Shown here one piece after another: positions 45,001 through 48,000 of a stretch of 64,000 nt of DNA. The notes under the pieces were generated by a model. That model saw only the letters and a list, made by a program, of their open reading frames with translations. It had not been told where the DNA came from and made no database searches. Origin of the DNA: Tubiluchus corallicola (Eukaryota; Priapulida; Priapulimorpha; Priapulimorphida; Tubiluchidae). The DNA lies in assembly GCA_030141605.1 (NCBI GenBank), contig JAQGDQ010000021.1:682001-746000 (forward strand). Direction: 5' to 3'. Numbering within the stretch: the first letter of the stretch is position 1; the number at the start of each line of letters is the position of its first letter. Made by a program: the position numbers and the translations under genes.

Positions 45001-48000
45001 ATGGTTGCATTTCAAGAATATTGTTACTGCTGTTTTGTTTTAAAAGTGTTGCTTTCTGTTAGAAGTGTGGTAGGAACTATGATGTATAATGCAAATACCG
45101 GTCTATGGCATTCTAATTAACTTCCACGCAGTTTTTTGTTTTGTGATTTTTAGAAAAGGATCTGTTATTAATAGTGAAACAATAGATTTCAAGTTCACGC
45201 AAGCGCTTGCCTTTCACTGCATCATTGTAAGTGTGACGTATTGATAATGAGCACGTTGATGTTTTGTATTTTCTTATCTCGGCTTGCCGTTGCTGTGAGT
45301 ATCATAACGATGCTAATAATGGCCAGTGAGTGTTTCCCTTTTTGAGATTTTGACACTGATTCTTGCTGTGCGCAAGAGAGCAATTTTTTAGACATTTTTA
45401 ACGAATCACTTTAACTTGTAATTTAGCAAGACCATGACATTACCAGTAATCAATCACATCGCAACTCCTGCAGCGTGTCAGTGGTTGTGGAGAAATGTGG
45501 AAAACTATAAATAAACTCAGCTTTTTTGAGCATCGAGAGTAGCTAAGACATTGCTAATAATCCATTCATTCCAGCGATGATATTTCATGACTATTCGTGC
45601 CTGCGATGATATTTCATGACTAGTACAAGAACAACATCATCTAATAATGATTGTCTCTGAATTTCATCTTGACTATATACCTACACATTGAATTAAAGAC
45701 TCCCAAAGAAGTTTTAAGAAGTCCTGGCTCAAGATAAGTGTTCATACCTCTTCAGTAAATGTGCTGGGCATGGTCCCTACCTAGTGCCTTTTTCTGCAAA
45801 CAAGCAGAGGTCTTAAACTTAATTGCCAAATTCACACATTATGTGTACACAATTTTCAGTTTTAAAATGACTATATTTTAAATTTGTTGAAACTCGGTTA
45901 TTTATTTTGCTGGTGTATTCTTCTAAGTTGCGTGACATTGTTATAGCCTATAATGTTTTTTGCGCTGCACCAAGTGCAACTTTTTAAAATGAGCAACAGA
46001 CCTTTATTATTTGTCTTTGACAAACCTAATAAGGTATGACACAAAGTCGATTATTTTCGGAATTTTTCTCTAATGAAACTCAAGGAGAGATGCTAATAAG
46101 CCTCGTCAAAATAATTTGACAGGAAAGTACTCCCTTGGGTTTTTACTCATTTTTTCTTTGTTTGTTCTAAAAATGACGTATTTTCTGTTCTGTTTGCTTA
46201 ACAAAATATTTTGCGCCAGAGTATTTTTGTTCACTGAATCTTCGTTACTCGATCTGAGCACTTCATTAGTGACATGATAGTTGTACGTCATCGTGTTTCA
46301 CTGTCACTTGTTTTTTTATTTGAAAACCTGAATTAGTATGCAATAAACTACAAATGACAAGACAATACAATTGTTTACTACTATTTTACAAGAAGTGACT
46401 GGGTTTTAAGAATAAAAATATTACTGTATTATGTTTAAGGAATGCGATTTCAGAAAATTTCCTGAAATAATTAGAATTCTCTGATGAGCTTGGTGAAGGT
46501 GTTAAAGGAAATGTTATTATTTTCCAGTCAGTAAGGGATGTGACATCACTAATAAACAGTTTGCCATTTCTGACACTGAATTATGGTTTTATAGTGTGAC
46601 AAAAAAATTTCAAACTTGTGTGGAATCACGCTTTTAGAATGACAAAATGCATTAGTAATTAGGGCATATCGGTTTCCATTACTGCCTGAAATTTTCTAAG
46701 ATTAGAGATAAGATTGAAGTGTACGTCTTTTCTGATTATTGGATGGAGGAGCTCGATGCGCATGTGCTGCTCACTGTCATTACTAAAAATATTTGTAAAA
46801 GATTCAAGATTTCACTAGCTTTCACCAGTTTGAAGCGGTTAGTTTCAAAGTTTGACTCAACGCTCAGGCTATGAAGAGCAGGCAATTATGTCGCTGGAAA
46901 TCACACACAAGACGTTAAACTGGTCAGTGAATGTCAGCACCAATGTTAGTGAAACTGTGGCTGAGCCAAGCGAGCCTGATATTGTTATGCTACTCATAGT
47001 AATAGCAGTAGGAGCAGTGACTGTTTTTCTGAATGCTCTTGTGGTTATTGTTGTTTACAAATATAAATGTCTACAGACTTTTCACAATAAACTACTAGCT
47101 AACTTGGCAGTAATAGACTTACTGTGTGGTTTTCTTAGTCCACTATGGTCGGTTGCTTTTATGGTCAATCCAGAACCATCGACTGAGCGCTGTGCTCTAG
47201 AAGCATTTATCATTGGATCGGTTTATACTTTGGGTCAAATTTTTCTCACTTGTATAACAGTTGATCGCTACATTGCCATAACTGAACCTGTTAAATACCA
47301 CAGACTGCAAGTGAAGTCACAAAAGTTCATGGTTTTCATCATAATTTCTCTGATGTATGCGTCATTTGTGGGTGGACTGTTTGCTTTTCAAATAGCTGTT
47401 CATTATACACCAGAATATTCGTGTTCGGATTTTGAAATTATGGTTCACCCTTTGTTTGCTGTCTTCTTCACATCACATTACATCCTAGCATTCATTTTTA
47501 TGATATATGCGTACACCGCAATCACTATAAAAGCGGTTAGACATCAGAACAGAGTAACCGGTATTCAAGGACTTCTGAAAAACTCTTCTGTCGGCCTGTT
47601 TGTGCAAGTAAAAGCGGCTAGGATGTCAGCAGTAGTCATCGGTACATCTATGACGCTTATTGCACCAAATGCTTTATACATGATTATACTCAGTATCACA
47701 AAAACTAAAAATCTGGAAATAATAGAAGTAATTCAGGCTTTCAGTTTCAATGTAAACTCTTTTCTCAATCCATTTATATATGTTCTGTTTTCGAAGGACT
47801 TTCGCCTTTGTATTAAGAAATTTTTATGGCGAACAAATGCTGTTAACACTGACAGTACAAGCCAGCCTTTCAGACCAATAACCATTTCCGTAACCAGGCA
47901 GCACCATTCCACTGTGTGAGCTAACTTAAGCTGTTAGATAATGTAAAAACCTTTAAATTTATCTGCAATTCACGAGGCTAGAATCTAGAGAAACAAAATC

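Follow-up and report, generated by a model that had tools for sequence, protein, structure and literature searches.

How does a receptor gene that lacks several of the residues usual in its class come to lie within an intron of SZT2, and does it still work? This question is raised by a 64,000-nucleotide stretch of Tubiluchus corallicola DNA (contig JAQGDQ010000021.1, positions 682,001 to 746,000 of the forward strand; hereafter the window), which holds a single-exon gene for a class A G-protein-coupled receptor (GPCR). We give a probability of roughly 70% to the reading that this is an independent, functional gene in an SZT2 intron, belonging to a family of about 30 loci that copies at the DNA level. 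Judged from the sequences, the members of an expanded family have the motif losses in common, and this is a more interesting result than the nesting.

A complete class A receptor with altered motifs

The open frame of the receptor spans 46843-47919 (358 codons) and exceeds the longest plus-strand open frame, 151 codons, found in 500 mononucleotide shuffles of 46001-50000. Pfam 7tm_1 matches residues 49-298 (E=3.3e-27, 96.1 bits, cut-off 30.5), and the AlphaFold model, with a predicted local distance difference test (pLDDT) score of 87, has the ordinary seven-helix fold of solved class A receptors; a model made without an alignment (pLDDT 44.3) was of no use. The receptor alone matches beta-2 adrenergic chains at E=8.8e-15, and the family profile matches the beta-2 adrenergic structure at E=2.2e-40. 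Relatives of the receptor were also sought in viral_contigs and in the prokaryote collection genome_contigs, where none was confirmed.

The positions that follow carry Ballesteros-Weinstein numbers, which we assigned ourselves from kept anchor residues. The receptor keeps N1.50, D2.50, C3.25, D3.49-R3.50-Y3.51 (DRY), Y5.58, P6.50, N7.49-P7.50 with Y7.53 (NPxxY) and F8.50; when aligned by the anchors, it has Ile at 3.32, Leu at 4.50, Ala at 5.50, Ser at 6.44 and Ile at 6.48. W4.50, P5.50, F6.44 and W6.48 are usual in class A, though not strictly defining, and these four are absent here, while 7tm_1, N1.50, D2.50, R3.50, P6.50, NPxxY and the fold are all present. The initial annotation, made from the sequence alone, had described a 343-codon receptor with DRY and NPxxY but without W4.50, P5.50, the Trp of CWxP and Asp3.32, and both parts of that description hold (aligned positions L, A, I and I). 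An aminergic identity was rejected, 3.32 being Ile109 and not Asp, as was an opsin, for at 7.43 (residue 288, counted back from P7.50 at 295) stands Asn and not the retinal-binding Lys.

A clade of receptors sharing the losses

A tblastn search of the animal's own genome (343.5 Mb, 2344 contigs) gave 694 candidates, from which at least 118 places were scored; 108 of the 118 cover at least 250 residues in one frame, 93 of these without a stop. We examined 70 loci, the 30 best-scoring and 40 of our own choosing from the other 88, and grouped them into sets after seeing the first tree. Throughout L001-L028, 6.44 is Ser and 5.46 is His (28/28 each), W4.50, P5.50 and W6.48 are absent (0/28 each), and 3.32 is variable (A, I, F, S, V, T and others). 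L029-L032 all have T6.44 and Y6.48, none has W4.50 or P5.50, and one of the four has H5.46. Twelve intermediate loci all keep W4.50 and all lack P5.50 and W6.48, with Thr (10), Asn (1) or Ser (1) at 6.44 and H5.46 in 4/12. The remaining 26, which serve as the outgroup, retain W4.50 in every case, F6.44 in 22 (Tyr in 3, Val in 1), W6.48 in 21, H5.46 in 13 and P5.50 in 8. The 32 best-scoring loci thus all lack W4.50, P5.50 and W6.48 and carry Ser or Thr at 6.44, whereas W4.50 is kept in all 38 others examined. The window receptor shares with its family an open single-exon frame, Ser or Thr at 6.44, the absence of W4.50 and a place in the clade on the tree, and the divergent group that the annotation saw in the lost motifs is borne out as a clade within this genome. 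Several family loci stand in tandem arrays.

At L054, on contig C1187, the match ends after residue 224, as it does at three other places (twice more on C1187 and once on C1927). L054 probably has an intron before helix 6, because a GT donor follows KAAK where its frame ends, and one of the outgroup loci counted as having "lost" W6.48 would be an artefact, since this locus is intron-split and its letters for transmembrane helix 6 (TM6) are intronic. Separately, Phe replaces P6.50 in L040, L063, L065 and L067 (letters before DTL: MFF, NVF, MFF and TSF), with DRY kept, and ERY stands in place of DRY in L045, L050, L055, L059, L064 and L066, which keep P5.50. L045 lies on C1770 and L055 on C2114, both contigs with many further family matches.

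The trees were quick ones with no bootstrap, and the near-identical copies L016 and L019-L021 were left out; L011 is truncated. In the first, the 40 rows with Ser, Thr or Asn at 6.44 grouped together (Shimodaira-Hasegawa-like approximate likelihood ratio test, SH-aLRT, 92). On a tree of 66 rows built after the trait columns had been removed, W4.50 needs a single change (28 rows, SH-aLRT 97) and appears to have been lost once; P5.50 likewise needs one change, 6.44 two, W6.48 six and H5.46 eight, and given these counts the last two are not clean single-event traits. On that tree the 40 rows lie apart, their common ancestor spanning 57 rows, and constraining them to one clade was not rejected (P value of the approximately unbiased test 0.316). 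It is a tentative and rather unlikely idea that in these approximately 40 receptors the whole transmission switch of class A was swapped together, and that they work by another relay (S6.44, H5.46, P6.50), or else are constitutively active or obligate partners of another receptor; as part of the same idea, P5.50 would have gone first, then F6.44 would have become Ser, Thr or Asn with the loss of W6.48, and W4.50 would have been lost last (28 rows, 32 loci). Nesting of receptor genes is already known, and so are expanded families of single-exon receptors. The useful point here is a graded series in one genome, with the CWxP/F6.44 core full, partial or missing and R3.50 and NPxxY nearly always kept, which lends itself to asking whether class A receptors need the W6.48-F6.44-P5.50 relay and what takes its place.

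Selection on the receptor and its relatives

Against its nearest copy, L002, the receptor has a ratio of non-synonymous to synonymous substitution rates (dN/dS) of 0.19 (YN00) or 0.27 (NG86), values that are rough because dS, at 1.2-1.7, is near saturation. In nine pairs of other family members the ratio is 0.48-0.92 in seven, 0.38 for L002/L006 and 0.20 for L015/L018. A decaying pseudogene whose frame is still open would fit the loss of W4.50, P5.50, F6.44 and W6.48 and the presence of copies with stops in the clade, but those losses are found throughout the clade, the receptor's frame is unbroken and its ratio against L002 is 0.19-0.27, and we consider decay very improbable.

Mode of duplication

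Because L002 and L003 agree at 90% across 4 kb, flanks included, copying at the DNA level appears to occur in the family, unless C2008 and C343, the contigs concerned, represent one place in two haplotypes. The annotation had suggested a possible retroposed copy, that is, the mRNA of a family member reverse-transcribed and then inserted into the SZT2 intron. This would agree with the single exon, with the restriction of likeness to other copies, within the host intron, to the coding part 46973-47897, and with an outgroup relative, L054, that seems to bear an intron after residue 224. However, coding-only likeness is also expected from dS >1, and the near relatives are single-exon too, so that this state looks inherited; one sister pair (L002/L003) is alike with its flanks. 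At the gene edges we found no pair of 12-base direct repeats beyond one chance-like match (shorter repeats were not examined), and no run of at least seven A in the 1.5 kb that follows the stop; nor was an intron-bearing parent seen. At the age of this copy such marks say little, and retroposition is without positive support and in our judgement unlikely. Two short matches elsewhere in the host intron, to L057 and L026, lie outside the receptor gene. By eye, a reverse-transcriptase-like open reading frame (ORF) is seen at L072:476-1192, beside receptor copies on C2008.

Position within SZT2

Translated pieces from 41.4-43.4 kb and 53.2-53.5 kb match, collinearly and with E=5.6e-38, the SZT2 chain of solved KICSTOR structures, which we take to be human. 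The receptor gene sits within one SZT2 intron interval of about 9 kb, on the same strand, because an SZT2 exon ends at 43633 and the next clear SZT2 coding opens at 53251 or 53163; the collinear pieces on both sides confirm the nesting proposed at the outset (Table 1). At its 3′ side the interval is limited either by a small phase-compatible candidate exon at about 52469/52529-52619 or by the next exon, opening at 53163. A piece from 50.5 kb, tried as SZT2 coding between the flanking pieces, was rejected as not SZT2-like in the alignment, and a tblastn search with an SZT2 stretch, made to find the linker exon that is missing, returned only noise. Rejected too was the receptor ORF as a retained SZT2 exon: it has its own stop, seven helices and 117 other scored places in the genome, and the SZT2 pieces that flank it align to a single SZT2 stretch that does not include it. 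A search for literature joining SZT2, intron and "nested gene" found none.

Table 1. Receptor gene and SZT2 features in the window
Feature	Position	Strand	Basis or remark
SZT2 exon upstream of host intron	43537..43633	+	SZT2 likeness judged by eye; donor GTATGT at 43634
Host intron interval	43634..53162	+	Phase reasoning; 3′ limit unproven
In-frame open stretch 5′ of ATG, no other ATG	46843..46887	+	Start taken as first ATG of the frame
Single-exon class A GPCR, 343 residues + stop	46888..47919	+	ORF ATG to TGA, 7tm_1, own-genome tblastn, AlphaFold
SZT2 exon downstream, both ends approximate	53251..53463	+	Match to SZT2 in alignment
Further SZT2 coding stretch downstream, matched part	60675..60935	+	E=2.2e-13; coordinates derived from ORF

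Expression of the receptor might be coupled to SZT2, its mRNA being derived from the SZT2 pre-mRNA or produced in step with it, as the shared strand and the large intron would allow. The family members nearest to the receptor are on other contigs, however, and nothing pointing to such coupling was found in the sequence, which makes it improbable. The location is probably incidental, with the receptor having a promoter of its own.

Proposed function

The receptor would reach the cell surface and there bind a small molecule or peptide from outside the animal, in a pocket that makes no use of Asp3.32; signalling to a G protein is argued because DRY, Y5.58 and NPxxY are kept. Pocket and G-protein site may be coupled without the W6.48/F6.44/P5.50 relay, through clade-fixed positions such as S6.44, H5.46 and P6.50, in a manner likened to that of MRGPRX1 with its G6.48 and L5.50. 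The family would evolve by birth and death, with copying at the DNA level, and its role is most likely chemosensory, its pattern resembling that of the clustered single-exon receptors of Aplysia. That the ligand is instead a hormone or neuropeptide of the animal itself, and not a chemical from outside, is possible but doubtful: the nearest solved structures to the profile are adrenergic, serotonin, trace-amine, histamine H2 and adenosine receptors, and the gene is constrained against its nearest copy, but Asp3.32 is missing, 3.32 is variable in L001-L028, and many copies are under relaxed selection.

Several observations weigh against an independent, functional gene from a DNA-copied family with such a role. 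AATAAA and ATTAAA are absent from the 1.2 kb 3′ of the receptor stop, the first lying at 49154. The dN/dS against L002 is only approximate, some copies may be drifting because seven of the nine other pairs have ratios of 0.48-0.92, and L007, L008 and L029 contain a stop inside the match. The locus count may be inflated because L015, L016 and L018-L021 are near-identical and C343 and C2008 may be haplotypes. H5.46, found also in 13 of the 26 outgroup loci, is not special to the clade, and the chemosensory role is drawn from analogy only.

Other features of the window

An Rfam match to mir-1175, a microRNA family of protostomes, lies at 24627-24699 on the plus strand (55.2 bits, gathering 51) and, if real, places a microRNA in the SZT2-bearing window and hints at a protostome. 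For COX1, sought in the assembly as a species marker, there was no match. An exact 121-bp tandem duplication at 40452-40690, its two copies 100% alike, adjoins a 40-copy ATA microsatellite and is either a young duplication or an assembly effect. At 13606-13748 a 69-bp unit occurs in two copies with 94% matches.

Comparison with known systems

Nesting of the receptor gene has a precedent, by analogy, in the GPCR gene LPAR6, which lies in intron 17 of RB1 (PMC4132050). In both cases a GPCR gene lies within an intron and is unrelated to its host; receptor and host differ, and the likeness drawn here is one of arrangement.

Among solved structures the best relatives are beta-adrenergic, 5-HT1, trace-amine-associated (TAAR), histamine H2 and adenosine receptors. 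They have in common with the window receptor 7tm_1, N1.50, D2.50, C3.25 with the Cys of extracellular loop 2, DRY and NPxxY, but identity is 17-25% in the structural rows and the window receptor is without Asp3.32, W4.50, P5.50, F6.44 and W6.48.

Expanded families offer a second comparison. The Aplysia candidate chemoreceptors AcCRa, AcCRb and AcCRc, as described in PMC2700072, are rhodopsin-like receptors of a mollusc and form large, clustered, chiefly single-exon families (319-364 residues in AcCRb). They carry ERC and the signatures FITAFITFERCLCIA (AcCRa) and WITAFVTFERCLCIA (AcCRb) in TM3 and intracellular loop 2; the window receptor has DRY and a different signature there and, by this comparison of signatures, falls outside these families. 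The flatworm-specific fwRhod, PROF1, Rho-L and Rho-R receptors are likewise orphan rhodopsins that have expanded, and in them the motifs of TM2 and TM6 vary while those of TM3 and TM7 are well kept (PMC6114109). They were recognised by poor matches (E > 0.01) outside flatworms, whereas the window receptor matches beta-2 at 8.8e-15, a separation made by description.

For the altered switch the comparison is with MRGPRX1, an active GPCR with G6.48 and L5.50 (PMC10286997). In both receptors the W6.48 toggle and P5.50 are replaced and NPxxY is kept, a likeness of motif states and not of tested common descent; MRGPRX1 keeps F6.44 and has ERC for DRY, whereas the window receptor has I6.48, A5.50, S6.44 and DRY. 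Because MRGPRX1 still couples (PMC10286997), the loss of W6.48 and P5.50 does not mean loss of function.
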